Below are positions 8,351 through 43,315 of a DNA stretch of 64,000 nucleotides, piece by piece. Made by a program: the position numbers and the translations under genes. Within the stretch, counting starts at the first letter, position 1, and each line of letters begins with the position of its first letter. The DNA is taken from assembly GCF_002077945.1 (NCBI RefSeq), contig NZ_LVYD01000061.1, forward strand, positions 50,663 to 114,662. Direction: 5' to 3'. This DNA is from Niastella vici. Its GTDB lineage: Bacteria > Bacteroidota > Bacteroidia > Chitinophagales > Chitinophagaceae. The notes beneath the pieces were generated by a model. That model had not been told where the DNA came from. It saw only the letters and a list, made by a program, of their open reading frames with translations, and did not search any database.

Positions 8351-8419
8351 GTAAAACTATTGCTGTGCAGCGTAGAATATGGCCCTCAAATGTTGCAGAT
8401 GATGGCATGAAATGTTGCA
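8351..8419 (-). promoter_or_regulatory. PUL operator-promoter module, GH97 unit
   Basis: Two direct repeats AAATGTTGCA (plus-strand reading; 8388-8397 and 8410-8419) are spaced 22 bp apart, with ATGGCATG between. After 28 bp comes the -7-like box TAGTTTTAC on the minus strand (8351-8359), 32 bp before the GH97 start codon. The same module recurs at 17221, 21840, 30149 and 43247. It is inferred to be the binding site of the hybrid regulator encoded at 43355-47467. Confidence 0.7.
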
Positions 8420-8533
8420 GAGTTACTATAGAACAAGACATAAGTAACTTTTTATTTTTCATCAGTAGCTTTTTATGCAGTGTCCCTTGCTTATTATGAG
8501 TTATCCCTGCATTTTATAGGGTCTGAAAAAAGA

Positions 8534-8561
8534 ATTGCACCAACCCGAAAGCTGGTGCAAT
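8534..8561 (-). terminator. Rho-independent terminator of the GH31-SusCD operon
   Basis: Perfect 9-bp stem ATTGCACCA (8534-8542) / TGGTGCAAT (8553-8561) with a 10-nt loop. On the minus strand it is followed by TCTTTTTTC. It lies 47 nt after the end of the surface-lipoprotein gene. Confidence 0.8.
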
Positions 8562-8607
8562 ATTGAAATTTTAACATCCGAGGCCTGGCCTCATTACTTA
8601 AACAGCT

Positions 8608-9432
8608 CTAATGTGTGTCGTAATACTGTTTTGTTATATAATTGTAGACGAGCCAGTTATTGGCATCTTTTTTAGCAATAAGTTGCATTGTACTGTCGGT
8701 AAGTGTTTTGACTGTCATTCTTGCATTCCAGTTGGCCACCTGACCACCTTGTGCTTTGTCATGTAAAACCTGGGCATCAATAGTTGCCAACTCATTTGTA
8801 CCTGGGTACAACATGAATTTACCTGTTCCCGACAGGTCAGGAAACATTTTATTATCGGATTTAAAATTTGCATTACCAATCAAATCAAAGGTCATGGTAC
8901 CATAATCGCCTGCAGAAACGCCAGCCCAGGGAATATCTTTAAAGGCAGGGTCCCATTCCCACCCGGTACCACCAAAGTAAAATGGTCCCGTAAAATATTT
9001 ACTCACCCCCTTAGCATCCAGATCCAACACCCATGTTTTCGAATTTCCTAACCCACCGCTGAGTTTAATCCACATTGGGTCGCTTACGGTCTTTTTATCA
9101 ATAGTATTTATAGTTACAAGAGTTGTATCGGCCAGAACAAGACCACCTCCACTTTCAACTCCATACACAAATTTGTAAGTTCCGGGGAAAGGAACATTGG
9201 TAGTATCATTTAATTTTATGGATTGTCCATAAGGAGTAACCCAGTATGGAGTAACATTGGGTGTTAAACTTGTTAAAACAATATCATTAGGATTTGCCGA
9301 TGAAGGCGCTATGGTGAACTTCAGATCACCCTTGTTGGCTAATCCACCCAATTCAAATATTTGGGGCCTGCACGAAGCATACAGCAGTGCTGATCCTAAA
9401 AATGCAAGTACTATTATTAAATTATTTTTCAT
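8608..9432 (-). CDS. Surface lipoprotein in the SusE-like position, function unknown
   Basis: This 274-residue protein has a lipoprotein signal with the lipobox ending in YASC (Cys about residue 21), so it is probably displayed on the outer membrane like SusE/SGBP proteins. An Ig/PKD-like N-terminal part (about 35-110) is followed by a region rich in aromatics and glycines (MWIKLSGGLGNSKTWVLDLD, FGGTGWEWDP), as found in carbohydrate-binding beta-sandwiches of PUL lipoproteins. I recognise no named family. It is the last gene of the GH31-SusC-SusD operon, 31 bp after SusD, followed directly by a terminator. A role as accessory glycan-binding protein for the adjacent SusCD pair is inferred from position. 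Confidence 0.7.
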   Translation of the reverse strand: MKNNLIIVLAFLGSALLYASCRPQIFELGGLANKGDLKFTIAPSSANPNDIVLTSLTPNVTPYWVTPYGQSIKLNDTTNVPFPGTYKFVYGVESGGGLVLADTTLVTINTIDKKTVSDPMWIKLSGGLGNSKTWVLDLDAKGVSKYFTGPFYFGGTGWEWDPAFKDIPWAGVSAGDYGTMTFDLIGNANFKSDNKMFPDLSGTGKFMLYPGTNELATIDAQVLHDKAQGGQVANWNARMTVKTLTDSTMQLIAKKDANNWLVYNYITKQYYDTH

Positions 9433-9463
9433 TTCCTTTTATTTTTTGGTTAAGACATATCTA

Positions 9464-11068
9464 TTACCAGCCGGCATTTTGCTTCAGGGTACCTGACGCT
9501 AAAGTAATTTGGTCGTTAGGTATTTGCTGAAACCCGCGGGTTGCTTTAATGTTTGCCTGCAATTTTGAAGCAGACGGTGGATTTGCAGTACCATCCTGGA
9601 ATAATGAAACAGTTGTATTGGCAGCAATTGTGGAAGCTGCCACATCAATACCCTGGCGCAATAAATCCCAATAGCGTAGACCTTCACCCGCAAATTCCAA
9701 CCTGCGTTCTGCTAAAATATCCGCTTTAGATACAGCAGTAGCAGGAGCAGCTGAAGGATCAGCTCTATGGTGTACCAGATTGTAATAACTTACAGCGTTG
9801 GGACTTCCCAATTCTGCAGCCATCAGCAAAACATCTGAATAGCGAATGGCGAAAAAATCCTGGTACTGTCCGGTTTGAAAATTGGAAACAATAGAAGTTC
9901 CGCTCTTGTCACACAGCATCGAATATTTTTTCATAAAATATCCTGTGTATTCGCGACAGTCACTTGATTTAGTGTAAGCAAGATTTTCGTCAGCTATAGA
10001 AGTGATGGTAGCAAAACGGCGTGTATCCGTTGATGCATAAAGGTTCCAAAATTTAGGATCAACAGTACATGCACCCCAGCCAGCCTGGTAAGGATAGATA
10101 CTCTGTGAACGTATTCCTTCCATTACCATCCACCTGTTTCCGGTAGCATCTGCAGACCAGTTATCTGTTGAAGAATACTTAATTGCAAATACCACTTCCG
10201 GATTGTCTTCACCTGCATAAGCAACACTTTTTGCTGTTGAAGGTGCCGGCCATAAAGTGTTGAAATCGCTTACCAATGAATGTCCGCTATGGGCAATTAC
10301 ATCTTCTACTGCTGCTAAAGCAGTAGCTGCTGTTTCCTTGGCAATAGTAGTTTTCCCATACAAACCAGCATAGTACAGATAGGCACGCGCCAATAAAGAT
10401 TCCGCAGCCCATTTGGTTATTCTTCCACTGGGTACACTTTTGTACGAAGCTGAAGGAAGACTATCCGAGGCCTCACGTAAGTCAGTCATGATTTGATTAA
10501 ACGTTTCATCAGGACTGGCTTGTGGCACATTGGCAAGGGTAGGTGTTATTACCAGGGGAACATTTTCGAACAACCGAACCAGATCTAAATAACAGTAAGC
10601 ACGAATGAATTTCGCTTCGGCAGCATATTTTGTTTTTAATGCAGTACTGTCGCCCCATGCCACCTTATCAATATTTTGCAACAATACATTACAGCGGTAA
10701 ATGGTTTGGTAATACGCTTTCCAGCCTCCAGAATGCACCGAAATATCAGAAGGAGAAACTGATTTATCAAATTCATCCATCATTGCCCATCCGTACCCGT
10801 CGAAAGTTCCCGTGCCGCCAAAACTGTTGTCAGAGAAAACTTCCAGCAAAGAAGGGATCGCATCATTGTTATAGATCTGATCGAGCCCATTGTAACAACC
10901 TGTCAGGGCAGTATATGCTTGAGAAGGCGTTTTATAATAGGACACAGTGGTCTGCTTGGCATCAGTCAATTCGGTTGTAACAAATTTTTTACACGAATTA
11001 AATGTTATTATTGCAACAACTGCAATAATGACAACTCTATATCTTTTCATGATTTTTCTTTTTCTCAA
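9464..11068 (-). CDS. SusD-family glycan-binding lipoprotein (first pair)
   Basis: SusD-like proteins form the extracellular lid of the SusC transporter and bind glycan. The sequence has a lipoprotein signal (VVAIITFNSCKKF), the N-terminal SusD segment (YKTPSQAYTALTGCYNG) and TPR-like helices (AEAKFIRAYCYLDLVRLFENVPL), then the C-terminal RagB/SusD core with ERRLEFAGEGLRYWDLLRQG, the hallmark of the family. The ORF begins at a TTG directly after the SusC stop; the ATG at 11050 (MKRYRV) is the better start and gives 528 residues. It follows the SusC gene without a real gap, as is usual for these pairs. Specificity cannot be read from the sequence. Confidence 0.95.
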   Translation of the reverse strand: MRKRKIMKRYRVVIIAVVAIITFNSCKKFVTTELTDAKQTTVSYYKTPSQAYTALTGCYNGLDQIYNNDAIPSLLEVFSDNSFGGTGTFDGYGWAMMDEFDKSVSPSDISVHSGGWKAYYQTIYRCNVLLQNIDKVAWGDSTALKTKYAAEAKFIRAYCYLDLVRLFENVPLVITPTLANVPQASPDETFNQIMTDLREASDSLPSASYKSVPSGRITKWAAESLLARAYLYYAGLYGKTTIAKETAATALAAVEDVIAHSGHSLVSDFNTLWPAPSTAKSVAYAGEDNPEVVFAIKYSSTDNWSADATGNRWMVMEGIRSQSIYPYQAGWGACTVDPKFWNLYASTDTRRFATITSIADENLAYTKSSDCREYTGYFMKKYSMLCDKSGTSIVSNFQTGQYQDFFAIRYSDVLLMAAELGSPNAVSYYNLVHHRADPSAAPATAVSKADILAERRLEFAGEGLRYWDLLRQGIDVAASTIAANTTVSLFQDGTANPPSASKLQANIKATRGFQQIPNDQITLASGTLKQNAGW

Positions 11069-14000
11069 TTAAAAATTAATATTCACACCTGCCATGTACA
11101 CTCTGGGGCGGGGATAAAATCCATTATCAACACCCTGGCCAAAAGAATGAGGATTATTAGCAGTGGCGCCGTTGCCGGTTCCATCCGGAGCGGAAGCACC
11201 AACCTCAGGATCCATACCACTGTATTTTGTAAAAGTGATCAGATTTTGTGCAGCTACGTATAAGCGGAACTGACTTAAATATTTCCATTTTATAAGTTTA
11301 GCCACGTCGTATCCGAGGGTAATGTTTGAAACTCTTAAATAGCTTCCATCATGAATATAGAGATCTGAAAATTCTACCCAGTTAGAACTGTTCTGCGTGA
11401 TGCGGGGCATTTTATTCGAAGTTCCCTCACCATGCCAACGGCTAAGAATATCAGTTGTATAGTTAGCCCATTGACCCGGACTACGGTAAGACTGAACAAT
11501 TTTATTACCTGCTACGCCATTGGTTGTAACAGAAAGATCAAAGTTTTTGTAGTTGGCTGAAAACCGGATACCAAAAATATGATGCGGATTGGGATCACCG
11601 ATATTGGTCTTATCTTTCGCATCAATTACTCCATCACCATTTAAATCTACCAATTTCAGGTCACCGGGTTGTGCATTCGGCTGAAGTAATCCGTTTTTAC
11701 CATTCCATGCCTGAACATCGGCGGTATTCTGAAAAATTCCTGCAGTTTTATAACCCCAGAAATAACCAATAGGATTTCCGGCAGCAGCACGGAAAAATTC
11801 AGGACCATTAACAAATAAACTGTTTGTACCGCCGTGAATGATGCCATCGGCAGTTGGAATATTGTTCACCACATTTTTATTGTAGGCATAAGAACCCGAA
11901 ACGGTATAGGTAAAATCGCGGCCAACATTTCCGTTATAAGCCAACTGAAGCTCTATTCCTTTATTGGTAACAAGTCCGCCATTGATGTATGGAGCATTGG
12001 GAACACCAGTAGTTGCCAACAAAGGCGCCTGAACCAACCAGTCTTTCGTGGATTTGTTGTACCAGTCAAGGCTCACGTCTAATTTATTATTCAGGAACCT
12101 TGCGTCAAAACCGATATTGGTTTGATGAGAACTTTCCCATCTGGTGTCTATAACACCAATTGTTTGAGGAAATGCCCCCTGAGTTAAAGTAGTATTATCA
12201 TTACCAAAATTGTACCGGGCATTAGATAAGGAAATTAAAGACAGGTAGTTAAAGGCATCAATACGATCATTACCATTAGTACCCCAGCCTGCTCTTAGTT
12301 TCAGGAAGTTCAACCAGGTATGGGTTGATGCCATGAAATCTTCATTGCTGGCTACCCAACCGGCAGAAAGCGATGGAAAATATCCCCATTGACGAAAACC
12401 GGGAGCAAACATGGTAGACATATCAGCACGGAAAACAGCAGTAGCTAAATATTTTTCTTTGAAACTGTAATTCACCCGGCCGAAGAATGAAGACAGGGCG
12501 TATACAGCATTGGCATTTCCGTTAAGCGATATGCTATTAGTGAGGGTTTGCCTGTTGGCTGCGGAAGTATCTGCACTCATTGTATAACCGGTTACCATGG
12601 AATTAGTCAGATAGCCACGATCAAAAGAACTGAACAGCGTAGCTCCTGTATTACTTCCGTTTATCCATGTTCCCTGAGCTTTTCTGATTGAAGTACCGGC
12701 CAACACATCAAAACTGTGCTCTTTAACCTTGAAAAGATAGTTGATCGTATTATCAAAGTTCCAGGTGTATCCCTGAGATCCGCCCTGGCTAATGTTTTCA
12801 TAAAGGTTATAAGCATATATCGACAACTTATCATATGCAGGCCTGTAGCTATGATTTGCCGATGAAGAATAATCCAAACCGAAGGTTGACCTTATTCTTA
12901 AGTTTTTGATGGGCTCAAGCTCTGCATAAACGTTTCCCAGCACTCTTTGCGTTTTGGTAGCATTCTGATTATTGTATTTCATCAACGCATACGGGTTGGC
13001 TTCGGTGTTATTCCAACTTCCGCCATTATATATAGTTGAATTGAGACTGCTCAGGTAATTGCCTTTTGCATCGTACATCGCCAATAAGGGGCTTGTACCT
13101 ATGGCGCCGGCCAACACGTTACCCGAATACAATCCGCCGTCGGCTACTCCTTTTTGATCGATCATAGAAAAAGTGAGATTTTCACCTACTTTCAATGCGC
13201 CGCCGTACATTTTACGTTCAGAGTTTGCTTTAAAGTTGATACGTTTATAATCTGACAGGTTTGCACCGCCAATGATGCCACCCTGTTCAGTATATGACCC
13301 GCCCAACGAATAAGATGATACGTCAGATCCGCCATTAGCTGATACATTGATATTCTGGATCGGCACATTGGAAGAAAACAGCTGGTGCAACCAGTCGGTT
13401 CCGTGAGCCTGCAAAATGCTGCTCCCTTTGGCTAAATCGTCAATTTGAGCCTGCGTGAAGAGCGGTGCTTTACCACTATTAATGGCTGCTTCATTTTGTA
13501 TGGTAGCATATTGTTCAGCATTCAGCAAAGGCAGTTTACGGGCAATGTTTTGAACACCGTAATAAGCATCAATTGAAATTTGCCCGTCTTTTTTACCTGA
13601 TTTTCCATTGCGGGTAGTAATTAATACAACACCGTTTGCACCATTAACACCATAGATGGCACACGATGCAGCATCTTTCAGGATATCGACCGAAGCAATA
13701 TCTGAATTGTTTAAGTAGGTAATGTCGCCGGTGAGAACCCCGTCCACAACATACAGTGGATTTGGATTCCCGATAGTTCCGGCGCCGCGGATAAGTACTT
13801 TAAAACCGCCGCCGGGTTGCCCTGAAGTAGAGGTTATGTTAACACCGGCTGCCTGCCCCTGCAATGCCTGTAAAGCATTTGTTGTGTTTAATTTGGCAAG
13901 GTCTTCCCCTTTTACCTGGGAAGTAGCGCCTGTAACTAATTTTTTCTTTTGGGTACCGTAACCGATCACAATTACATTTTCCAGTGAATTGTCGGCTTCC

Positions 14001-14308
14001 TGCAAAAGAATTCTTATTTCTCCGGAACCCACGTTTACTTCCTGGGTGGTAAAACTAATGGAAGACACCACCAGTACTTCGCCGGCATCTGCATTGATAG
14101 CAAACTTTCCGTTCATGTCTGAAACGGCGGAGCGGCTCGTTTTTTTCACCGTAATGGTAGCGCCCACAATGGGCTCACCTGAACGTTTAGATAACACTGT
14201 ACCGGTAACCTTTGCTGTTTGCGCAAAAGCACTTGTGCCCGAGAGGAATACCGATAATATTCCCCATAGCAGTAATGATCGCAAGCGAATCGTTTTGGTT
14301 GATTTCAT
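11069..14308 (-). CDS. SusC-family TonB-dependent outer-membrane transporter (first pair)
   Basis: The 1079-residue protein imports oligosaccharides across the outer membrane using TonB energy. It has a signal peptide (to about residue 30, SGTSAFAQ), a carboxypeptidase-regulatory-like domain (about 32-112, VTGTVLSKRSGEPIVGATI), a TonB-box-like stretch (ENVIVIGYGTQKKK), a plug domain with DVLKDAASCAIYGVNGANGVVLITT (about 205-235) and a 22-strand type beta-barrel ending in an aromatic residue (NINF). The regulatory-like domain and length are typical of SusC. It lies 25 bp after GH31 and directly before its SusD partner, linking this pair to alpha-xylosidase activity. Confidence 0.96.
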   Translation of the reverse strand: MKSTKTIRLRSLLLWGILSVFLSGTSAFAQTAKVTGTVLSKRSGEPIVGATITVKKTSRSAVSDMNGKFAINADAGEVLVVSSISFTTQEVNVGSGEIRILLQEADNSLENVIVIGYGTQKKKLVTGATSQVKGEDLAKLNTTNALQALQGQAAGVNITSTSGQPGGGFKVLIRGAGTIGNPNPLYVVDGVLTGDITYLNNSDIASVDILKDAASCAIYGVNGANGVVLITTRNGKSGKKDGQISIDAYYGVQNIARKLPLLNAEQYATIQNEAAINSGKAPLFTQAQIDDLAKGSSILQAHGTDWLHQLFSSNVPIQNINVSANGGSDVSSYSLGGSYTEQGGIIGGANLSDYKRINFKANSERKMYGGALKVGENLTFSMIDQKGVADGGLYSGNVLAGAIGTSPLLAMYDAKGNYLSSLNSTIYNGGSWNNTEANPYALMKYNNQNATKTQRVLGNVYAELEPIKNLRIRSTFGLDYSSSANHSYRPAYDKLSIYAYNLYENISQGGSQGYTWNFDNTINYLFKVKEHSFDVLAGTSIRKAQGTWINGSNTGATLFSSFDRGYLTNSMVTGYTMSADTSAANRQTLTNSISLNGNANAVYALSSFFGRVNYSFKEKYLATAVFRADMSTMFAPGFRQWGYFPSLSAGWVASNEDFMASTHTWLNFLKLRAGWGTNGNDRIDAFNYLSLISLSNARYNFGNDNTTLTQGAFPQTIGVIDTRWESSHQTNIGFDARFLNNKLDVSLDWYNKSTKDWLVQAPLLATTGVPNAPYINGGLVTNKGIELQLAYNGNVGRDFTYTVSGSYAYNKNVVNNIPTADGIIHGGTNSLFVNGPEFFRAAAGNPIGYFWGYKTAGIFQNTADVQAWNGKNGLLQPNAQPGDLKLVDLNGDGVIDAKDKTNIGDPNPHHIFGIRFSANYKNFDLSVTTNGVAGNKIVQSYRSPGQWANYTTDILSRWHGEGTSNKMPRITQNSSNWVEFSDLYIHDGSYLRVSNITLGYDVAKLIKWKYLSQFRLYVAAQNLITFTKYSGMDPEVGASAPDGTGNGATANNPHSFGQGVDNGFYPRPRVYMAGVNINF

Positions 14309-14333
14309 ATGTATATATTTAACGTGACTTTGA

Positions 14334-17204
14334 CTAGATTTTTATTGTTAGTTTCTTCCCTTCATACATTATTTCCTTATCGCATTTGGCATCAAATTCC
14401 AAATGCTTTGCTTCATTAGGTGTTATCACATTGATGCGAAACGTTCTTTTTGGCAGCATTCCATTAAAAGTGCCTTTACGGTCGCCTATTGTAATAGTTT
14501 TTGCGGCTTCATTATACTTTACCGGAATGATGGTGAATGCACCTTTCTCATAATTATAGTTGGCGCCTTCATCTTCATACAAATTGAAAGAAGCATCTGC
14601 GCCGGTGTATACATTCAATGTTATGGTATCAGCCGGTTTTTCTGAGGTATACTGCAACCCGGGTCCAAAAGGAATGATGGAACCTGCTTTTACAAACACA
14701 GGCATGCGTTCGTATGAAGCTTCCGCATTTATTTTTTGGCCGCCGGTATACCATTTGCCCGAATACAGATCGTACCAGCCTGCGCATTTTGGCAAATACA
14801 GTTCACGGTTGCGTTGTTTGTATTGGTAAACAGGATTTACAAGCAACGAAGGCCCGAACAGGTACTGATCACCGATGTTCAAAACCGCCGTGTCTTTTGC
14901 AAAATCCATTACCAGCCCGCGCATGATCGTGTAATTCTCGTGATAAGCGGCGCCTGCCAATGAATAGATATAAGGCATCAGGCGATATCGCAATTTATCG
15001 TAGTATAGGAAACTTTTGTAAGCGGCATGATCATCAGGAGCTATGTTAAAGATCTCGCGGTAGGGAAACTGCCCATGCGAACGGAATAAAGGAACAAATG
15101 CGCCAAACTGGTACCAGCGTGCATTCAGCTCCCGCCATTCTTCCAGGCTTTCTGCGTTGGGTTTTTCAAATTTTTCCGGCACCACAAAACCGCCAATGTC
15201 CATCGTCCAGTAAGGAAGTCCCGACATAGAAAAATTAACGCCGGCGGCAATTTGATTTTTCATATCCTGCCATGTACTCCCAATGTCGCCGCTCCATATC
15301 GATGCAGCATAACGTTGGGAACCTGCAAAACCCGAACGGGTGAGTAAGAACACCCGCTTGTTGGGGTCTACCGACCGCTGTCCTTCATAAAATCCTTTTG
15401 CATTCTGTAAGGGATACGCATTGAGGTATTCTGCTGAAGGACCTAATGCAGTAGGCGACATTTGCGCTTTCCTTTTTTCGGGACTTACATTAGAAAGAAT
15501 ATCGGGTTCGCTGGCGTCTACCCACCAGGCATCGATGCCTTTGCTGTAAATTTTATTGCTGATCAAATTCCAGAATCCTTTCCTGGCTTCGGGGTTGAAC
15601 GCGTCGTAAAAAGAGGAAATATATCCCTGTCCTATCCAATCTCTTTGCCGGTCGGCTATGTTCCTTTTATAGAGCCACCCCTTTTTGTTGAATTCATTGT
15701 AGGTTGAGATGCCTTCGTAAAATTTCGGCCATACCGAGATCATGATCTGCGTGTTGTACTTTTTATGCAGCACATCGATCATACTATCGGGAGCAGGAAA
15801 ACGTTTTTCATCAAAATCCTGGCTGCCCCATTCGGCTTCGCGCCAGTAGCTCCAGTCCAATACAATATTATCTATCGGGATTTGTCTTTTACGGAATTCA
15901 TCAATGGTGGTGAGTATTTCATTCTGTGTTTTATACCGCTCGCGGCTTTGCCAGAAACCCAATGCCCATTTTGGAACGATGGGCGCCTTGCCGGTAAGAT
16001 CACGATATCCGGAGATCACTTCATCCATGTTGTTGCCATAGATAAAATAATAGTCAATTTGCTGACCTGCTTCGGAAGAAAAACTGAAACTGTTTTGCTC
16101 CGTTGCGCTCAATGGTTCCTGCCATTTCAACGAACAATAGGATTCGCCGCCTTCAGGGGTCCATTCAATTTTGACAGGTATTTTTTCTCCCTTTTTAAAA
16201 TTGCAGGAAAGCAAAGCAGGCGCAGGGTTCCATGCTTTTCGCCAGTGGTCCAGAACAAGGTTTCCACCGAGCCAAACTTTCAGCGAGCCGCCAAATGTAA
16301 ACCGGAATTGATGAAGGCCCGAGAGATTACTGGCCAGGCTGCCTTCCCAGGTTACGAGGCCGGTTGCAGGTGTAAATATAGCAGGAAGGTTGATCTTTGA
16401 ATCACCTAAAAACGGCATATCGATGCTCGTCTCGGCTCTTTCGGTAATTACTTCCTGTGGTTGCAGTTTGTTGTTGGCATAGGAGGCCGTAAGCCATCCG
16501 GCCTCTCCTTTTTTTGAATAAAGCTGTAAAGCAGCAAGCTGGTGAAGCGGCCTGGTATCGCCAGCCGTTGTAAGTGAATAATTATCCCAAAGGATGCCGT
16601 AATTTTTGGGTGACACTAAAAAAGGAATGGCCACTTCGGTATTGTTTTGAAAAAAACTAACCTGCTGACCTCTATAATTATATATTCCGTCCTGGTGCTG
16701 GCCTAATCCATACCATGCATCATCTGCGGTTGTTTGAAATGATTGAGTAAGATTGTAGTATCTTTTTCCGTCAAATACCACAGGCCCGAAATGCCGGCCC
16801 AATGGCTGTTTTTCAGCCAGTATTTTTTCACCTTTCGAGTCCCGGAAAGAAACGGCGCCTGTTTTCAGGTCAACAACAGCAGTCAACTTTTTTGTTTTTA
16901 CTGTTATGCTTTCTTTAGTGGGAATCACGTTCCAGAAAACGTCGGGCCTTTTTGTATAAACGGTGATTAAACTTTCAGTTGGGGTGATCTCTTTTTCCGG
17001 AGCTGCAATCACTCTTATAATATTGTCTGTGATCACCTCCAGCTTAACGGCGTTGGATGTACCGGTAACAAGCGGATCGGTATAAATTATTACGCCATTG
17101 GGCGTTGTTTTGTAAGCAGGGGGAGTTGCTGCCAATAATGTATTAATGATAACAACATTGAATAAGCCAAACAGCAGTGTTCGTAATTTCATATAAACAA
17201 TCAA
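14334..17204 (-). CDS. GH31 alpha-xylosidase with PA14 insert
   Basis: GH31 alpha-xylosidases remove xylose from the non-reducing end of xyloglucan oligosaccharides. The 956-residue protein has a signal peptide (LFGLFNVVIINTLLAA), an N-terminal galactose-mutarotase-like sandwich and a (beta/alpha)8 barrel with nucleophile motif DAWWVDASEPDIL (Asp near 561) and acid/base motif SIWSGDIGSTW (Asp near 639). Between about residues 260 and 370 lies a PA14-like domain (WEGSLASNLSGLHQFRF, GSLKVWLGGNLVLDHW). Xyloglucan-specific GH31 enzymes of Cellvibrio and Bacteroides carry this same insert, where it reaches toward the active site and favours long oligosaccharides. The start may be 17204 or the ATG at 17192 (MKLRTL). 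It leads the operon with SusC/SusD and follows a shared PUL operator. Confidence 0.92.
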   Translation of the reverse strand: MIVYMKLRTLLFGLFNVVIINTLLAATPPAYKTTPNGVIIYTDPLVTGTSNAVKLEVITDNIIRVIAAPEKEITPTESLITVYTKRPDVFWNVIPTKESITVKTKKLTAVVDLKTGAVSFRDSKGEKILAEKQPLGRHFGPVVFDGKRYYNLTQSFQTTADDAWYGLGQHQDGIYNYRGQQVSFFQNNTEVAIPFLVSPKNYGILWDNYSLTTAGDTRPLHQLAALQLYSKKGEAGWLTASYANNKLQPQEVITERAETSIDMPFLGDSKINLPAIFTPATGLVTWEGSLASNLSGLHQFRFTFGGSLKVWLGGNLVLDHWRKAWNPAPALLSCNFKKGEKIPVKIEWTPEGGESYCSLKWQEPLSATEQNSFSFSSEAGQQIDYYFIYGNNMDEVISGYRDLTGKAPIVPKWALGFWQSRERYKTQNEILTTIDEFRKRQIPIDNIVLDWSYWREAEWGSQDFDEKRFPAPDSMIDVLHKKYNTQIMISVWPKFYEGISTYNEFNKKGWLYKRNIADRQRDWIGQGYISSFYDAFNPEARKGFWNLISNKIYSKGIDAWWVDASEPDILSNVSPEKRKAQMSPTALGPSAEYLNAYPLQNAKGFYEGQRSVDPNKRVFLLTRSGFAGSQRYAASIWSGDIGSTWQDMKNQIAAGVNFSMSGLPYWTMDIGGFVVPEKFEKPNAESLEEWRELNARWYQFGAFVPLFRSHGQFPYREIFNIAPDDHAAYKSFLYYDKLRYRLMPYIYSLAGAAYHENYTIMRGLVMDFAKDTAVLNIGDQYLFGPSLLVNPVYQYKQRNRELYLPKCAGWYDLYSGKWYTGGQKINAEASYERMPVFVKAGSIIPFGPGLQYTSEKPADTITLNVYTGADASFNLYEDEGANYNYEKGAFTIIPVKYNEAAKTITIGDRKGTFNGMLPKRTFRINVITPNEAKHLEFDAKCDKEIMYEGKKLTIKI

Positions 17205-17220
17205 TCGTTAAACGGATAGT

Positions 17221-17289
17221 GTAAAGCTATCGTCGTGCGGTGTAAAACAAGGGTCCAAAATGTTACAGATTATGGTATGATTTGTTACA
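17221..17289 (-). promoter_or_regulatory. PUL operator-promoter module, GH31-SusCD unit
   Basis: Repeats AAATGTTACA (17258-17267) and ATTTGTTACA (17280-17289) are 22 bp apart in plus-strand reading, with TATGGTATG between. Exactly 28 bp separate them from the -7-like box TAGCTTTAC on the minus strand (17221-17229). The box lies only 17 bp before the 17204 start codon, so the leader would be very short, or the ATG at 17192 is used. Confidence 0.7.
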
Positions 17290-17317
17290 GATGCATGATT
17301 TTCAAGGGCAAAAAGAA

Positions 17318-17360
17318 GCCCACAACATGGTCACTTCAAAAAAGTGATCGCGTTGCGGGC
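17318..17360 (-). terminator. Rho-independent terminator of the GH43-GH39-acyltransferase operon
   Basis: Long hairpin: outer arms GCCC-CAAC / GTTG-GGGC and inner arms GTCACTT / AAGTGAT around an A-rich loop. On the minus strand it is followed by TTCTTTTTG. It lies about 85 nt after the acyltransferase stop. Confidence 0.75.
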
Positions 17361-17443
17361 GTAACTGAAAGGGCATAATCAGCCCCCGGATGTTTCATAA
17401 ATAGCTACAAATGTCTTACTTAAGGCAACATTCTTATGACATT

Positions 17444-18619: not shown

Positions 18620-18658
18620 TTACTGCCTACCTTCCACATCCTGTTGCTAAGCAGAAAT

Positions 18659-20254: not shown

Positions 20255-20309
20255 ACTAAATGATTATATCGTCTATTGTATTCCAGTGTGTTCACCGAAA
20301 GGTCGTTTT

Positions 20310-21821: not shown

Positions 21822-21839
21822 TCCAATTTCTTTATTGCC

Positions 21840-21907
21840 ACAAAACTAGCACGCTGCTGTTTCAACAGGGTGAACAAATGTTTCTGATTGGGGTGCGAAA
21901 TGTTATT
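21840..21907 (-). promoter_or_regulatory. PUL operator-promoter module, GH43 unit
   Basis: Repeats AAATGTTTCT (21876-21885) and AAATGTTATT (21898-21907) are 22 bp apart in plus-strand reading. The -7 box on the minus strand is TAGTTTTG (21841-21848), an exact TAnnTTTG. Spacing between operator and box is 27 bp, one less than in the other four copies, and the repeat halves are the most diverged. Confidence 0.6.
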
Positions 21908-21924
21908 GCTACGGCTTACAAAAA

Positions 21925-21961: not shown

Positions 21962-22064
21962 TTTTATTCCTCTATTTCATTTTAAAAACCTTACATGATT
22001 TTAACCAATCTGTTCCATGCACCTCAATTATATATATACCGCTTTTAAGCGAGGCTTATTTATT

Positions 22065-26764: not shown

Positions 26765-26773
26765 ACTATTATT

Positions 26774-29956: not shown

Positions 29957-30024
29957 ACAATTGCGTTAGCGTTAAAAAAATAAACTGTTTAGTTTTGGTC
30001 GTTTTTCCCTTTGCGGGTGGCTCA

Positions 30025-30120
30025 TTAAAACGCTTGAAGTTGTTGTGGTGAAAACAGCCATTGCTGCCAATAAGACTTGGCTACTGAAGAATTCCCAAAA
30101 TGAGACAGCTGTTGTTTCAT
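30025..30120 (-). CDS. Possible 31-residue leader peptide in the SusC mRNA leader
   Basis: An ATG at 30120 opens a short frame reading MKQQLSHFGNSSVAKSYWQQ and ending 11 residues later. It lies wholly between the inferred transcription start (about 30142) and the SusC start codon at 29956. No clear ribosome binding site is seen, but Bacteroidota often lack one. It could be a chance frame, or a translated leader that affects SusC expression. I recognise no homologue. Confidence 0.25.
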   Translation of the reverse strand: MKQQLSHFGNSSVAKSYWQQWLFSPQQLQAF

Positions 30121-30148
30121 ACCGCAAAACAATCGTCAAATGAACACT

Positions 30149-30217
30149 GTAAAAATATTGCCGGGAAGTTTAAAGTATGGTCTCAGAATGTTACAGACTA
30201 TGGTAATAAATGTTGCA
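30149..30217 (-). promoter_or_regulatory. PUL operator-promoter module, SusC-GH5 unit
   Basis: Repeats GAATGTTACA (30186-30195) and AAATGTTGCA (30208-30217) are 22 bp apart in plus-strand reading with TATGGTAAT between. After 28 bp comes the -7-like box TATTTTTAC on the minus strand (30149-30157). In contrast to the other modules, the gene start is 193 bp away. Confidence 0.7.
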
Positions 30218-30261
30218 AACAGATGATTTTCATTCCATCATGCATTACCGTCAAAAAAAAA

Positions 30262-30288
30262 CGCTACGAAACGTTGAGTCTCGTAGCG
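30262..30288 (-). terminator. Rho-independent terminator of the GH3-to-GH29 operon
   Basis: Perfect 8-bp stem CGCTACGA (30262-30269) / TCGTAGCG (30281-30288). On the minus strand a run of nine T follows. It lies about 30 nt after the GH29 stop. Confidence 0.9.
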
Positions 30289-30317
30289 CATTATAGTATA
30301 GTTGTAATGGGGTGAAC

Positions 30318-31973: not shown

Positions 31974-31998
31974 TTAAAAAAGTTTATGTTTTATACAA

Positions 31999-34353: not shown

Positions 34354-34431
34354 TTAAAAATATTTATGACTATTGCTGTGTAATAGTCAATAGAACCAAA
34401 GTTCACCCTAAACGAAAGCCGGATTTTCTTT

Positions 34432-36852: not shown

Positions 36853-36863
36853 TTTTATATTCT

Positions 36864-38663
36864 TTATCGAATCGAATTATAATACTCTTTAATTATATAC
36901 CAGGCCTTCTTCTTTTCTCCTTTATCCGACAACAATCCTTTCCGGTTGTATCCTTTCTGATATACAGGGTGCATTCTGCCTGGCGACCGGTAGTCGAACA
37001 ACAGCCAGGGACATACTCCGCATAAATCAGGCACCGTATTAAACATTTCAATTTGATCGGTATATATTTTTGCCTGGTACGCTTCGGTCCAATAAGCAGC
37101 TTCATCCGTTGGCACGTTTTTATTGCCATATAATGCTTCACCGCCAAACTCTGAGATAAATACCGGTTTTTCGGGGCAAACCAATGTCCATTTTGTAGCA
37201 GCCGGTAAACCCTGCCAGGGAGTATACCAGCCAATATATTCATTGATGGCAATAATATCAGCCTGCCGGTAAAGCGTATCCCACAAATCGAAAGTATTGT
37301 TTTGGTAACGCTGGGTATTTATAACATGGGTGATCAATCTTGCAGAATCAATGGCTTTGCATTTTTTTGTAAGTTCAGCAAGCGCTTTATCGCGGCCCGG
37401 AGTTCCCGGATAGGTTTCGTTCGAAAGGCTCCAGATTATGATCGCGCAGCGATTCCTGTCGCGCCGCACCATCTCTTTAAGCATTCCCTCCATTTTAGAC
37501 GGAAGGGAACTGTCGGCAAAATCAATATGCTGGTATACCGGAATTTCGCTCCATACCATTAACCCCATCTTTTCAGCTTCTTTAATCATATGCTCATTGT
37601 GCGGATAGTGGGCCAGCCGAACAAGATTACAGCCTAACTCTTTAGCCGCATTCAGTAATAAAACAGCATCCTTCGCTGAAGATGCCCGGGCTCCTTTAAA
37701 TGGATTTTCTTCATGAATATTTACCGCTTTCAAAAAGAGCTGTTTTCCGTTTAGCACTACTTTACTTCCTTTCACTTCAATACTTCTGAACCCTATATTA
37801 TCTTCAACGGTATCTGTTTCACTTTCGATCATTACCTTATACCGTTTAGGAGATCCGGGACTCCATAGCTTAAAAGCGGCTGAAAATTCCACCTTTGCCA
37901 CACCCTCATTATCCGTTCTTGCTTTATAAAAGATGTTGAGTTCCGGAATTTTTACTGTAATGTTTTGGGCCAATTGGCTTCCATTTAACTGCACCCAACC
38001 TGAAACAGTATTTAAACTGCCCTTTTTTAATTGAATGTTATAATCTTCAATAAAAGTGTTGCCGGTTTCTATAAGGTCAACATCACGTGTTATGCCGCCA
38101 TAGTTTAACCAATCGTACCCCAGGCCAGGCAATCCGCTCTTATAACGCCCATTATTTACTTTAACAACTAATGCGTTTGGCCCATCCTTTACTTTGCCGG
38201 TAATTTCGAACTGAAAAGGAGTAAAACCACCTTCATGGCTTCCTGCTTTTTCACCATTCACATACACATCGGCCCAATAATTAACAGCCCCGAAATGGAG
38301 GAACAGCCTCCTCCCCTTTTGGGCCCTGTAATTAAATTCTTTTTTGTACCAGACTGTTCCTTCATACCAGGTCAATTCGCACAATTGGGAATTAAAGTCA
38401 CCCGGTACTTTCAATACCGGGGCGCCCTGAAACGAATACTCAAAAAAATCGGTTTTCTTTTGTGGCTGTTTTTCTAACCAAACCTGCTGCCATTGACCAC
38501 TACCAGCGGGGTCAATAATAACGCTCCAATCGCCATTTAAACTTGTTACATTCCTCGATTGTACATTTATCATTGCCGTTTGGGCGTTAGCCAGCTCTAC
38601 TGTAATAAGAATGAAAAAAAGAGCAAGAACCCATTCTTCCGATCTTTTTTTGTACCTGTTCAC
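36864..38663 (-). CDS. GH2 glycosidase, short form (beta-glucuronidase/beta-galactosidase type)
   Basis: This 599-residue GH2 enzyme has a signal peptide (LALFFILITVELANAQ), sugar-binding jelly roll (about 30-200, WYKKEFNYRAQKGRRLFLHFGAVNYWADVYVNG), Ig-like domain and barrel with acid/base in IIWSLSNETYPG (near 415) and nucleophile in PVFISEFGGEAL (near 504). It lacks the extra C-terminal domains of the neighbouring GH2, and its size matches beta-glucuronidase-like GH2 proteins. It could act on beta-galactosyl or beta-galacturonosyl/glucuronosyl side groups; the sequence alone does not decide. It ends 11 bp before the next GH2 and begins 11 bp after the esterase gene. Confidence 0.85.
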   Translation of the reverse strand: MNRYKKRSEEWVLALFFILITVELANAQTAMINVQSRNVTSLNGDWSVIIDPAGSGQWQQVWLEKQPQKKTDFFEYSFQGAPVLKVPGDFNSQLCELTWYEGTVWYKKEFNYRAQKGRRLFLHFGAVNYWADVYVNGEKAGSHEGGFTPFQFEITGKVKDGPNALVVKVNNGRYKSGLPGLGYDWLNYGGITRDVDLIETGNTFIEDYNIQLKKGSLNTVSGWVQLNGSQLAQNITVKIPELNIFYKARTDNEGVAKVEFSAAFKLWSPGSPKRYKVMIESETDTVEDNIGFRSIEVKGSKVVLNGKQLFLKAVNIHEENPFKGARASSAKDAVLLLNAAKELGCNLVRLAHYPHNEHMIKEAEKMGLMVWSEIPVYQHIDFADSSLPSKMEGMLKEMVRRDRNRCAIIIWSLSNETYPGTPGRDKALAELTKKCKAIDSARLITHVINTQRYQNNTFDLWDTLYRQADIIAINEYIGWYTPWQGLPAATKWTLVCPEKPVFISEFGGEALYGNKNVPTDEAAYWTEAYQAKIYTDQIEMFNTVPDLCGVCPWLLFDYRSPGRMHPVYQKGYNRKGLLSDKGEKKKAWYIIKEYYNSIR

Positions 38664-38674
38664 GGCTTTCTGTT

Positions 38675-40645
38675 TTATTTCTCAGTAATTCCTTTCCACA
38701 CATCCGTTCTGAAAGGAATAGCAGGCAGTTTTTCTGAATTCACCAGGTTACACACCGGGTTATCGGCCCAGGCATAGCGCACGGCTTCAGGCTCAGCCAC
38801 TTTATCGCAGGAAACGATCACATGGTCTCCTTCAATAATGGCTTTTGCCCAATAAAATTGTTTGTCTTTACCCGCTATGGCAAAACCCGTGAGCTCTTTT
38901 CCATCTTTGGTTGAAAGACCTGCCCCTGTATTGGTAAAATTGATGCGGATGCGATTCCCTTCTTTCTTAAATTCTTTAAATAGTGGCCCTGATGCAATAA
39001 CATTTTGTTTGTACACCTGTTTATTGGCAATTAATGCCAACCGGCGGCCCACCTCCTGCTTGTTTTTTGGATGAATATCATTCGCTTCACCAATATCTAT
39101 GATGCATGCCATGCCGGTGTTAGGCAGAGATAAGGTGAGCGTTTGCGCTTCACGCAATTCGGCCCATTCACTTTCAGTGGGAAGCGGTTTTGTTTTCATA
39201 AAATTCGCCAGCTGAACAAACAAAAATGGACAATCGCCCTGTTGCCAGCGTTGCCGCCAATCGGTGATGAGCATGGGAAATAATTTTCTATAATTGTAAG
39301 CCGCCTGTGCATTGGCTTCGCCCTGGTACCAGATAAATCCTTTAATGCCATAAGGAATAACCGGGTTTATCATGGCATTGAAAAGCACGGTGGGGTAATA
39401 CTGATAGTTGAGTATTTTCGGAAAAGCGGGCTCAAGGTCTTTTTTATACAACCATTTCCCCGCTAAAGAAATGGTAGAAGCGCCATCGGTAATATAAAGA
39501 TCATCTGCCGGCTGATTCAGGCCGCCACCGCCCCACAGCATGGCCACCCGCACAGCAATGGTATTTTCTCCACGCTGCAGCAAACGCGCCGGAATGGTAT
39601 AAGAATGAGAGGGACTGGAATTCCAGATATTCTTACAGATCTCCTGTCCATTTACATAAAGCGAATAGTTCATCTCCGGATGGCCCAGGTTCACCGTGAG
39701 GTCTTTTCCCGCAAAGGATTCAGGCAATGTTATCTTTTTCCGCAGCCAAACCATTCCTTCATAATATCCAATCCCAAAATCTTTTAGCACACCGGGCATT
39801 TCAACAGGCGCCCATCCTGCATCGTTATATTCCGGAGCCGGAAATATTTTATCGGCATTATTCTGCGGATTGTAAACAAGATGCCAAATGCGGATCCAGT
39901 TCAAACTATCGGTCACAAAATCTTCCCGGTCAAAACTAAGGGTATCATTACTGAGTGTACGAGCCCTGGTAATGGGCGATGTAAGCAACTTATCGCGGCT
40001 CGTCCAGGCTTCTACCGGCGTTCCGCCCCAGGTGCTTTGAATAATACCAACCGGAACATGCTGGTCACCGTGCAGCTTACGCGCAAAATAATAAGCCACC
40101 GCCGAGAAGTCCTTTACATTTGCGGTATCACAAACTTTCCATTTACCGGCCAGAATAGCTGATTGAGGCTTTAATTTTTTATCATGCTCAACCACAAAAA
40201 AACGTATTTGAGGGAAATTAGCATTTTCAATTTCCTTACGCGCATCCGCTGCCTGCTGCACCTGCCATTCCATATTCGATTGTCCTGAAGCCAGCCAAAC
40301 ATCACCTATAAGAACTCCCTTTAACTCAATTGCCGTATTGGGCTTTCCCTGTTCATTTATTTTGAGCGTATAAGGGCCGCCTGCGATAAACTTTGGAAAG
40401 TGAAGCGTCCACATCCCGTCTTTTCCGGCTTTTGCCGTTGCACCCACTGTTCCCAATTGCCCTGATATAACTGATCCGGGATTTGCGGTTCCCCAAACAG
40501 GAATTGAGATCCCTCTCTGTAAAACCATATTGTCGCCAAATACTTTTGACAATGTGAGCTGCGCATTACACAGCAAAGGGAATAAAAATATTGATACTAT
40601 AAAAACTGACCGGCTAATTGCTTTATTCATTGTCATTCTGATCAT
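38675..40645 (-). CDS. SGNH carbohydrate acetylesterase (sialate O-acetylesterase family)
   Basis: The 656-residue protein has a signal peptide (VFIVSIFLFPLLCNAQ) and an SGNH hydrolase fold split by a jelly-roll insert. Nucleophile motif DVWLASGQSNMEWQ lies near residue 120 and the catalytic Asp/His motif ANDIHPKNKQEVG near 522. The insert (about 250-390, YNDAGWAPVEMPG and MVWLRKKITLPESFAGKDL) resembles a GH2-type sugar-binding domain. Family members remove acetyl groups; related enzymes in plant-glycan loci (CE20 type) deacetylate galactose on xyloglucan. The position between GH3 and two GH2 genes supports such a role: deacetylation before galactose removal. It ends 11 bp before the short GH2. 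Confidence 0.85.
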   Translation of the reverse strand: MIRMTMNKAISRSVFIVSIFLFPLLCNAQLTLSKVFGDNMVLQRGISIPVWGTANPGSVISGQLGTVGATAKAGKDGMWTLHFPKFIAGGPYTLKINEQGKPNTAIELKGVLIGDVWLASGQSNMEWQVQQAADARKEIENANFPQIRFFVVEHDKKLKPQSAILAGKWKVCDTANVKDFSAVAYYFARKLHGDQHVPVGIIQSTWGGTPVEAWTSRDKLLTSPITRARTLSNDTLSFDREDFVTDSLNWIRIWHLVYNPQNNADKIFPAPEYNDAGWAPVEMPGVLKDFGIGYYEGMVWLRKKITLPESFAGKDLTVNLGHPEMNYSLYVNGQEICKNIWNSSPSHSYTIPARLLQRGENTIAVRVAMLWGGGGLNQPADDLYITDGASTISLAGKWLYKKDLEPAFPKILNYQYYPTVLFNAMINPVIPYGIKGFIWYQGEANAQAAYNYRKLFPMLITDWRQRWQQGDCPFLFVQLANFMKTKPLPTESEWAELREAQTLTLSLPNTGMACIIDIGEANDIHPKNKQEVGRRLALIANKQVYKQNVIASGPLFKEFKKEGNRIRINFTNTGAGLSTKDGKELTGFAIAGKDKQFYWAKAIIEGDHVIVSCDKVAEPEAVRYAWADNPVCNLVNSEKLPAIPFRTDVWKGITEK

Positions 40646-40649
40646 AGTC

Positions 40650-42821
40650 TTACTTAACTGAAATTTTTACCTGTTGAAAAATATGGCGCGACGAATTACC
40701 TAACTGCAAAACATACTCGCCTGACTCTGTATTCCAGGCTTTTTTTGATTCGTCATAAAATGCCAGGTCGGCCACTTTCACTTCCATGCTCACCGTCATT
40801 GTTTCGCCGGGCTTCAAAAATATTTTTTCAAAAGCCTTCAACTCTTTCTCCGGACGCAATACCGAACAAACCGGGTCGCTTGCATATAACTGCATTACTT
40901 CACCACCGTAAACACTGCCCGTATTTTTAATAGTGAAGCTGGCATGAATGATGTCATTTTTTCCATAACTTATTTTATCTGTTGCAAAATGACTAACGGA
41001 AAAACCCGTATACGAAAGCCCATACCCAAAGGGAAATTGCGGTTGTATTTTCTTTGTATCGAACCAGCGGTACCCTACCAGGATATCTTCTTCATACTTC
41101 ACTTTCAGGTCACGGCCCGGGTAATTACCGAGGGCATGTGCAGGCGATTGTGCTAAGGATACCGGCAACGTGAATGGCAGCTTGCCCGAGGGATTTACTT
41201 TACCACTTAGTACATCGGCCACTGCATTGCCCGCTTCCATGCCACCAAACCACGACCACACAATAGCAGGCACCCGGTTAACTATGCCGGCCAGTTGTAC
41301 CGGCGACCCGGCAATGATCACTACTACGGTATTGGGATTAGCTTTCGCTACTTCCTGCATCAGGATCTCCTGCCCGTACGGCAGGTCCATATTTTGTTTA
41401 TCAGAAGATTCGGTATCAAAATCATGGTTTAACCCGCCAAAGATGAGCACTACATCCGACTCCTTTGCAACGGCCACCGCTTCATCGATCAGCTTCCAGT
41501 TTACGTTGGCCGAACCGGACTGGCCTGCGTTATTGCCTTCTTTAAATGTAGATTGCTTTTCGTACCCCTGTGCATAGTTTATTTTCACCTTGTCGCCAAA
41601 CTTTTGCTGCAGGGCCTGCAGGGGCGTAATTTCATACAGGGTCTTTATTTCTGAACTGAGCCCGCCGCCGCAATGTTTGCGGGTAGCATTATCACCAATA
41701 ACGGCAATCGATCTTAATTTATCAAAATGCAACGGCAGCAGCTTTCCATTATTTTGTAAAAGCACTGCCGCCTCGGCAGCGGAATTATAGGCAGCCTGCT
41801 GATGTTCGGGCGTATTCATTTTACCGGCTGCCCTTTTTTGCTCATCAAACATTTTTGTATTGAACATAACACGCAATACGTTGGCCACTTTTTCATCAAC
41901 CACCGATTGAGGTACCTTTCCTTCTTCTACTGCTTTAATTAACGGGTCGGCAAAATACCATTCGTTGTAATTGTTTTTATCGGTGCCCATTTCAAGGTCG
42001 AGCCCGGTTAAAGCCGCTTTTACGGTTGTATGGGCAGCAGACCAATCGGTCATGAGCACGCCTTTAAAGCCAAACTCCTTACGCAGCAGTTGGCGGTTCA
42101 GGTATTCATTTTCTGAACACCATTCGCCTCTGAACCGGTTGTAAGCAGCCATTACGGTATAGGCGCCGCCTTCCATTACCGCAGCTTTGAATGCCGGCAA
42201 ATATATTTCGCGCAAGGCCCTTTCGCTCATGCTTACGTCAACAGAGTCGCGATGCGCTTCCTGGTTATTGGCCAGCCAGTGCTTCACACTTACTGCCACA
42301 TCTTTCGATTGCAGCGCTTTAATATATGCAACGGCCATCCTTGAAACCAGCAAGGGGTCTTCACTCATGTACTCAAAATTCCTTCCGCACAATGGTGAAC
42401 GAATAATGTTTACGCCGGGGCCCAATAAGATATCTTTCTTGCGAAAACGGGCTTCTTCACCCAACACCAACCCCTGCTTATAGGCCAGCGCCGGGTTCCA
42501 GGTAGCGGCCAGCGCTGTTCCCGGGGGAAAGCAGGTGGCTGAATCGTTCGTCCAACCGGCATATGCCCAATCGTGCCGGTTAACCTCGGCGCGTACCCCA
42601 TGTGGCCCGTCGCTCAGCGCCCATTCGGGAATGCCCAGCCTTTTTATACCTGCTACATAAAACTTCGAATTGCCATGCAGCAGGCTCACTTTTTCGGGCA
42701 GGGTCATCTGGCTTATAAGTTCACTTATCTTTTGTTCTGTAGCCGAACCGCCTTTTACTGATTGCTGCGCATAACCTGCGTACATCGTTAACAAAAAAAG
42801 GGTGGAAACAAATGCTTTCAT
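40650..42821 (-). CDS. GH3 beta-glucosidase
   Basis: The 723-residue exo-enzyme has a signal peptide (TLFLLTMYAGYAQQ), an N-terminal barrel, an alpha/beta sandwich and a C-terminal fibronectin-III-like domain (about 635-720, HASFTIKNTGSVYGGEVMQLY). The nucleophile motif GVLMTDWSAAHT lies near residue 260 and KHWLANNQEAHRDSVD near 180 matches the substrate-binding KH. It would cleave glucose from the backbone once side chains are gone, the last step of xyloglucan breakdown in the periplasm. It lies 4 bp before the esterase gene in transcription order and follows the broken GH2. Confidence 0.93.
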   Translation of the reverse strand: MKAFVSTLFLLTMYAGYAQQSVKGGSATEQKISELISQMTLPEKVSLLHGNSKFYVAGIKRLGIPEWALSDGPHGVRAEVNRHDWAYAGWTNDSATCFPPGTALAATWNPALAYKQGLVLGEEARFRKKDILLGPGVNIIRSPLCGRNFEYMSEDPLLVSRMAVAYIKALQSKDVAVSVKHWLANNQEAHRDSVDVSMSERALREIYLPAFKAAVMEGGAYTVMAAYNRFRGEWCSENEYLNRQLLRKEFGFKGVLMTDWSAAHTTVKAALTGLDLEMGTDKNNYNEWYFADPLIKAVEEGKVPQSVVDEKVANVLRVMFNTKMFDEQKRAAGKMNTPEHQQAAYNSAAEAAVLLQNNGKLLPLHFDKLRSIAVIGDNATRKHCGGGLSSEIKTLYEITPLQALQQKFGDKVKINYAQGYEKQSTFKEGNNAGQSGSANVNWKLIDEAVAVAKESDVVLIFGGLNHDFDTESSDKQNMDLPYGQEILMQEVAKANPNTVVVIIAGSPVQLAGIVNRVPAIVWSWFGGMEAGNAVADVLSGKVNPSGKLPFTLPVSLAQSPAHALGNYPGRDLKVKYEEDILVGYRWFDTKKIQPQFPFGYGLSYTGFSVSHFATDKISYGKNDIIHASFTIKNTGSVYGGEVMQLYASDPVCSVLRPEKELKAFEKIFLKPGETMTVSMEVKVADLAFYDESKKAWNTESGEYVLQLGNSSRHIFQQVKISVK

Positions 42822-42910
42822 TACTGTGATTATATATATTTTTTAAATCTGTAAAATTTAAAGAACGGGCGCTATAGAAATAGGCCCGTTTCGTGTGCTA
42901 ATGTGAACAT

Positions 42911-43225
42911 TTAAGTATTAGCATCAACCAAAATTTTTTCGTAATGTGCTTTCCGGTACCAGCCAATGCCGCCCCGTAAAACGCCGCAGCCCGTACCGGT
43001 TGGGTTGGTACTGTCAAAAAGCGTTTCAATACACCAGTTGTGGGGCAGGTTTAATTTTAGCCAGTTGTTATCGGGGAAAGAAGGTTCATCAGCCGGCGCA
43101 TCACCTAAAAAGAATTTCCAGCCGTCATTAAATGATCTTGTTCGTATGAAGTTGGATTGTGCAACAACGGAATTGTAAAATAATAACACAGGCAACAGCC
43201 ATAGTCGCATTTTCATATACAGCAA
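42911..43225 (-). pseudogene. Truncated GH2 gene (N-terminal sugar-binding segment only)
   Basis: The 104-residue frame has a signal peptide (LWLLPVLLFYNSVVAQ) and the start of a GH2 sugar-binding domain: FNDGWKFFLGDAPAD, NNWLKLNLPHNWCIE and GIGWYRKAHYEK. It stops where the jelly roll of the intact GH2 at 34432-36852 continues for about 700 more residues. No barrel or catalytic residue is present, and no GH2 sequence was seen in the 89 bp before GH3. It is the first frame after the shared operator, so the promoter of the GH3 operon is probably that of a former GH2 gene whose 3' part was deleted. Confidence 0.8.
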
Positions 43226-43246
43226 TCTTTGATAGATTTTGATGCT

Positions 43247-43315
43247 GTAAAACTATTCTTCTGCCTGCTCAGCCAGGGGGGCCAATTGTTTCAGAATAGT
43301 GCATGAAATGTTGCA
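43247..43315 (-). promoter_or_regulatory. PUL operator-promoter module, GH3-to-GH29 unit
   Basis: Repeats AATTGTTTCA (43284-43293) and AAATGTTGCA (43306-43315) are 22 bp apart in plus-strand reading. After 28 bp comes the -7-like box TAGTTTTAC on the minus strand (43247-43255), 22 bp before the start of the broken GH2. The module lies between the regulator gene and the operon it probably controls. Confidence 0.7.

Follow-up and report, generated by a model that had tools for sequence, protein, structure and literature searches.

Predicted tandem operator-promoters of a hybrid two-component regulator at a xyloglucan-type polysaccharide utilization locus of Niastella vici

What is shared by the promoters of one polysaccharide utilization locus (PUL), and which regulator would read it? 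The question is raised by a stretch of 64,000 nucleotides from Niastella vici (the window; G000:C61:50663-114662 of a 10.06-Mb genome), in which five promoters carry a similar 69-bp module and a hybrid two-component system regulator (HTCS) is encoded next to the fifth. All six domains of this protein score above cut-off, and a single polypeptide combines the sensor with a histidine kinase, a receiver and an AraC-type domain; the kinase motif reads VSHEFRTPL and the receiver motif VVSDIMMP, and a hydrophobic stretch near residues 808-824, found by eye, is a candidate membrane span. From sequence comparisons we consider it highly probable that each site is an operator-promoter of this HTCS and switches on a xyloglucan-type PUL, with a sister regulon and action in trans as parts of the system.

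The five modules were found at the coordinates given in an initial annotation of the window (Table 1), and their two repeats are spaced exactly 22 bp apart in 5/5 sites. The -7 box, TAnnTTT[A/G], stands at module offset 60 in four sites and at offset 59, one base closer, in the module at 21840-21907, which is the most degenerate of the five. Two details required correction. The proposed repeat AAATGTTnCA (plus-strand reading) is present as a pair in every module, but only five of the ten copies match it exactly. The block TATGGYATG, described as semi-conserved and lying between the repeats, belongs to the promoter-distal unit as its box B (CC), and the same box recurs after the second repeat. 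On the gene strand the consensus is a 22-bp unit of approximately TGYAACATTT-N4-CC-N4-T(C/T), present twice and followed by 15-16 bases and TAnnTTTA. When a 44-bp matrix was built from four window sites and the fifth was held out, each of the five held-out sites outranked all non-module sequence in the window (21-41 bits versus at most 10.2).

An alignment of 32 sites (14 from the genome itself and 18 from 11 orthologous loci, all found with patterns or matrices containing box A) revealed that each 22-bp unit is bipartite, with box A (TGnAACATTT) followed about one helical turn downstream by box B (CC). Both units are almost invariant at A4, C6 and A7 and have CC at positions 15-17. Comparison of their information profiles gave a correlation of r=0.66 in register, of 0.61 with a shift of one base, and of at most 0.36 at other rotations. 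By analogy, the distance between the boxes fits the two helix-turn-helices of a single AraC domain. The -7 box TAnnTTT was present at offset 59 or 60 in 32/32 sites, its last base being mostly A, not G; for 13 of the 14 sites from the genome itself, this box was also part of a pattern that they match. The primary-sigma promoter of Bacteroidota has TAnnTTTG at -7 and TTTG at -33. A -33 box was not apparent in the alignment (TTTG in 0/32 sites, TTG in 4/32; background 0.21 per 12-mer). In Flavobacterium johnsoniae a -33 motif likewise could not be identified, according to PMC7366714. The position of the proximal half-site would fit an AraC class II activator site, in which this half-site covers the region of the upstream promoter element and the box for helix-turn-helix 1 lies farther upstream. 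Across 202 promoter regions (the window, neighbourhoods of the genome's HTCSs and control stretches), direct repeats accompanied by a -7 box occurred 12 times at spacing 22 and at most three times at any other spacing from 12 to 33. Ten of the 12 are the modules themselves; the remaining two, on contig C113, have other letters.

The genome was scanned with patterns derived from the modules. The two-repeat pattern gave ten matches at up to 3 mismatches (four in the window, the 21840 site being missed) and none with reversed-pattern controls; nine of the ten also have a -7 box, which is absent from that pattern. Addition of the -7 box yielded 11 matches and one reversed control, and a version with -7 box and a one-base shorter gap yielded two and none. 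The CC in the -7-box genome patterns and in the family-genome pattern lay one base off the best column, which cost mismatches and maybe sites. Together with the 21840 site, missed by the patterns, the genome contains 14 modules. All 14 precede glycan-use genes, and a chance repeat was rejected on the reversed-pattern controls of the genome and family-genome scans. The weakest module, on C63, has 3 mismatches, a level at which one control also turned up. A scan of viral contigs for the module found nothing.

The initial annotation had expected one window to define the regulon. In fact nine of the 14 modules are located on six other contigs (C44, two; C59; C124; C89, three; C66; C63), and five of these nine bear the base-5 signature of a paralogous regulator described below. 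The C44 modules precede two genes of GH74 (glycoside hydrolase family 74), and the catalytic parts of both match xyloglucanases of solved structure (best hit 6p2l; E=0 and 1.5e-244, the second gene being searched over its first 699 residues only). Other targets are a SASA esterase (C59), a GH5 (C124), a GH31, a GH5 and a GH3 (C89), a SusC-like gene with SGBP-B (SGBP_B_XBD; C66) and a GH44 (C63). Xyloglucan is predicted as the substrate of the PUL, since the window PUL and C66 both encode SGBP-B with a xyloglucan-binding domain.

By regulator sequence, the nearest relatives are found in Niastella, Chitinophaga and other Chitinophagaceae. In one genome-contig scan covering 40 regulator loci, the module was present in 11/11 loci whose regulator is at least 61% identical to that of the window. 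In nine of them it lies 34-69 bp beyond the point where the regulator match ends, and in the other two 363 and 529 bp beyond it. The other 29 loci gave one match, at 10.5 bits and lacking a -7 box (highest control, 7.5 bits). The matrix used for the orthologous loci did not include the -7 box, and this box was correctly placed in 18/18 of their sites (background rate 0.0034 per position). When at most 2 mismatches were allowed, the full module was found in six of 117 family genomes and the reversed control in none. An HTCS of at least 64% identity was encoded in six family genomes; five have a pattern module and the sixth (G039) a 33.9-bit matrix site. The modules were thus upheld as predicted tandem operators of the adjacent AraC-type HTCS: they track the regulator, they keep the -7 box and, as follows, their bases shift with the recognition helix.

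Covariation was studied in 102 distinct HTCS loci, drawn from 394 family genomes (92 of the 106 HTCSs listed) and from the earlier loci. Flanks of about 1.5, 4 or 10 kb were examined per locus, operators were called at 18 bits plus a -7 box, and a quick tree was made from kinase and receiver only. An operator was found in 62 loci. With Arg at residue 1298 of the first recognition helix, TG was present in both units in 26/29 cases; with Lys or Asn, in 0/33. Val1294 was accompanied by A at base 5 of both units in 50/51 cases, and Ser or Lys1294 by non-A in both units in 4/4; with Ala or Gly, both units were non-A in 0/7. Removal of the 12 training-site loci left Arg at 15/17, Lys or Asn at 0/33, Val at 39/40 with A/A, and Ser or Lys at 3/3 with non-A in both. 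When bases 1-3 and 5 were ignored in scoring (59 loci), the rescan gave Val 48/48 with A/A, Ser or Lys 4/4, and TG in 26/29 with Arg1298 as against 0/30, with one reversed control in 102. Among 256 receiver and DNA-binding positions, residue 1294 alone fully separates the base-5 classes (Val: A; Ser or Lys: C/T). Operators of the Arg clade and the Lys clade differ mainly at bases 1-3: sister Lys1298 HTCSs (L146, L147, L150, L168, L184, L187 and others) have GTTAACATTT / ATAAACAT-like operators at equal spacing and -7 distance. The L180 HTCS, with the helix SRKALYNK, has the operator CTACCCAATT/GTACCCATTT, changed at bases 1-2 and at base 5. Natural variation in operator bases parallels that in the first recognition helix: base 5 goes with residue 1294, and bases 1-2 go with residue 1298. 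In an alignment with AdpA, V1294 and R1298 fall on two AdpA arginines four residues apart, which we take to contact DNA.

Both base-5 types occur in N. vici. A second PUL, on C89, comprises GH31, GH39, GH2, GH29, GH5, GH43, GH3, SusC-like and SusD genes, and its HTCS is 75% identical to that of the window and has Ser1294. Base 5 reads A/A in each of the nine modules of the window type. In the three C89 modules and in those on C66 and C63, one or two of these bases are other than A. An exact C/T-type operator pattern matched five sites in 3/394 family genomes (controls, 0), and these are the three genomes in which a Ser1294 HTCS was found. A variant tag that differs chiefly at one base per copy goes with the sister sensor and would keep two circuits apart. 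We slightly favour a wider proposal, namely that residue 1294 (Val versus Ser/Lys) reads base 5 and so insulates two paralogous xyloglucan-type regulons with alike promoters, that Arg1298-TG marks the split from a wider HTCS clade, and that regulons grow by capture of cassettes of promoter plus gene start.

It is highly improbable that the modules are bound by a regulator other than the adjacent HTCS, whether a free-standing AraC protein or, at the C44 and C124 modules, the HTCS encoded beside them. The window does encode a second AraC-type protein (60886-61782; HTH_18, a free regulator), and other HTCSs do adjoin the C44 and C124 modules. The DNA-binding domains of these two are, however, only 40% and 33% identical to that of the window HTCS, yet the modules are of the window type, with A at base 5 and with TG, but TA in one C124 unit; on this ground the neighbouring HTCSs were rejected as binders. 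Moreover, across species the sites go with the orthologous HTCS, and their bases vary together with its helix. Binding by the window HTCS is the preferred reading.

Several observations weigh against this reading and its residue-to-base extension. (i) No operator reached the threshold in 40/102 loci (3 Arg, 37 Lys), and the search matrix had been trained on Arg-type sites. (ii) Ala1294 is intermediate, with one non-A unit in 5/6 cases. (iii) For TG, D1276 ties with R1298 at the top of the 256 positions, and other clade markers come next. (iv) Arg1298-TG represents a single change on the tree and is confined to one clade; two other Arg helices (L162, L217) lack TG. On the quick tree Ser/Lys1294 has three origins, of which only one pair is on well-supported branches. 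With three changes for the base-5 rule and one for the TG rule, a sign test is impossible. (v) L166, a Lys-type HTCS, has a TA/TG site nearby; its genome also has an Arg-type HTCS. (vi) As all five C/T sites were known before the search, the independent part of that result is the absence in all other genomes, and the HTCS survey scored two HTCSs per genome only, so that Ser-type ones may be missed. (vii) In G015 there is a single 2-mismatch site but no close HTCS. (viii) A good reverse-oriented double unit stands before a GH44 gene at C44:12132 (L011 12132-12163); it faces away from its neighbour and is without a -7 box, and for these reasons it was not counted as a module.

The modules had been described as lying upstream of PUL transcription units. 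Each does precede its unit, but short stub ORFs intervene before the first full gene at the 43247 and 30149 modules (Table 1). Elsewhere in the genome, the start of a GH31 gene precedes the C66 SusC-like gene, a short GH31-like start precedes the C89 GH3, and the C59 module likewise opens a short stub; stubs were noted at L127 8588-8818 (GH31) and L017 near 10200 (GH31-like). Because stubs stand between module and functional gene, sequence comparison suggests that promoters moved together with gene starts. The same stubs hint at recent copying of promoter regions, in which case the shared letters would denote ancestry and not a binding site. Likeness also extends beyond the module, to 70% over 422 bp between the 17221 site and C89:22705 and to 87% over 135 bp for the C44 pair. 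Still, copying as the whole explanation is quite improbable: across genera the inter-box letters turn over while box A, box B, the 22-bp spacing and the -7 distance persist, and base changes track the regulator's helix residue. Copying can account for the spread of the module, not for why the box positions persist.

Downstream of the -7 box an inverted repeat ACAGCA...TGCTGT is found in some promoters. In the window it lies at 43219-43251, beginning right behind the -7 box and ending shortly ahead of the start codon, and copies with full or shorter arms were seen at both C44 modules, C59, C66, C89, L050, L051, L059 and L062. It is a candidate 5' stem-loop or second operator. One could accordingly imagine that an RNA leader controls the transcript and that the direct repeats are incidental, the more so as all three genome matches to the exact form TTTACAGCA-N10-24-TGCTGT lie in module promoters. 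We regard this as extremely improbable: the arms are absent from four of the five window modules, the double unit is present in 5/5, and the RNA leader was rejected as the main element on that ground.

The likely mechanism is that the neighbouring HTCS binds the modules, because the module conforms to a type already described, the AraC-type HTCS operator built of tandem repeats. The phosphorylated window HTCS would sit as a tandem pair on the module and turn on the PUL, the two monomers lying on one face of the DNA. In each monomer, helix-turn-helix 1 would read box A and helix-turn-helix 2 box B. The promoter-proximal box B is at the place of the -33 element; the regulator therefore likely replaces the -33 contacts, in the manner of class II activation. 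The window HTCS may also work in trans on genes of other contigs (GH74, GH5 and esterase), and the sister HTCS on C89 (Ser1294) may control, within the same cell, another xyloglucan-type regulon whose operators are shifted at base 5.

Table 1. Modules, regulator and stub reading frames of the window (window positions; -7 boxes and units within each module under details).
Feature	Coordinates	Strand	Details
Module 1, before GH97	8351..8419	-	distal unit 8398-8419, proximal 8376-8397, -7 box 8352-8359; GH97 by Pfam
Module 2, before GH31, then SusC-like, SusD	17221..17289	-	distal unit 17268-17289, proximal 17246-17267, -7 box 17222-17229
Module 3, before GH43, GH39, acyltransferase	21840..21907	-	distal unit 21886-21907, proximal 21864-21885, -7 box 21841-21848; Pfam
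Module 4, before SusC-like, SusD, SGBP-B with xyloglucan-binding domain, GH5	30149..30217	-	distal unit 30196-30217, proximal 30174-30195, -7 box 30150-30157; Pfam
Module 5, before GH3, SASA/GH2-like, GH2, GH2, GH127, GH29	43247..43315	-	distal unit 43294-43315, proximal 43272-43293, -7 box 43248-43255; Pfam
HTCS, 1370 aa	43355..47467	-	Reg_prop, Y_Y_Y, HisKA, HATPase_c, Response_reg, HTH_18 (AraC type)
Codon of Arg1298, first recognition helix NRVTLYRK	43574..43576	-	covaries with operator bases 1-2 (TG)
Codon of Val1294, first recognition helix NRVTLYRK	43586..43588	-	covaries with operator base 5
31-codon stub ORF, between module 4 and SusC-like gene	30025..30120	-	ORF
101-codon 5' stub of GH2-type gene, between module 5 and GH3	42914..43216	-	59.6% identity over 89 aa to C89 PUL GH2

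The SusC-like gene that follows module 2 encodes Plug and TonB barrel domains. At the start of the window, positions 3-2345 encode the N-terminal part of another HTCS (G000:C61:48829-52947), with zinc dehydrogenase and GH95 genes alongside; this region is possibly part of another PUL. Near other HTCS-type genes, L092 (2311-2360) and L103 (near 12937) contain 22-bp direct repeats with other letters and an equal -7 distance, which are probably operators of other regulators. Direct-repeat searches around more distant HTCSs gave few clear motifs.

HTCSs are a major class of glycan-use switches in Bacteroidota. The module is ordinary in kind; what is added here is a regulon that extends beyond the window, a bipartite unit, and covariation that can serve as a testable code. 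Together with a residue-to-base rule, a fixed grammar of the promoter (two boxes, units of 22 bp and a -7 box at offset 59-60) would make operators predictable from regulator sequence and would allot regulons between paralogues in one genome. The rule can be tested with two point mutants, and it hints at how a sensing circuit is duplicated and then kept separate. If true, it would provide a readable specificity code for HTCSs, whose targets are mostly unknown; 20 of the 36 B. thetaiotaomicron HTCSs were left without a predicted motif, as stated in the main text of PMC3878776. That main text contains neither 'recognition helix' nor 'xyloglucan', and its sole passage with 'residue' concerns sugars. 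In the open-licence literature, as far as its text is accessible, neither an HTCS recognition code or residue-to-base rule nor a xyloglucan HTCS operator in Chitinophagaceae was found, and a literature search for residue-level contacts in AraC proteins returned no usable paper.

How does the module compare with known systems? MarA recognizes two sub-boxes one turn apart and works as a monomer. Like MarA and AdpA (matched to PDB 1bl0 and 3w6v), each monomer would have two helix-turn-helices; here two units stand in tandem. For the HTCS response regulators BT4124 and BT4663, a 2024 study showed that phosphorylation raises binding to promoters with predicted sites (PMC11253607). The window HTCS resembles them in having an AraC-type DNA-binding domain after the receiver, and differs in reading AHIP where PMC11253607 gives S/CHIP. 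In Bacteroides, operators were predicted for 16 HTCS regulons (Ravcheev et al. 2013, PMC3878776); its main text describes direct repeats of two conserved sites at an average distance of 21 bp, motif groups that follow regulator groups, and, already in 2013, an HTCS dimer bound on one DNA face two turns apart. The present modules share with these operators (PMC3878776, main text) the direct repeat of two sites about two turns apart in front of PUL genes. They differ in the 22-bp spacing, the fixed -7 distance, the box A and box B in each unit, and the residue-to-base covariation. The Bacteroides xyloglucan PUL reportedly includes SusC/SusD, SGBP-B with a xyloglucan-binding domain, GH5, GH31, GH2, GH3, GH43 and an HTCS. 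The window PUL has a like gene set, whereas in N. vici two to three loci together with scattered GH74, GH44 and GH5 genes use two operator types in one genome.

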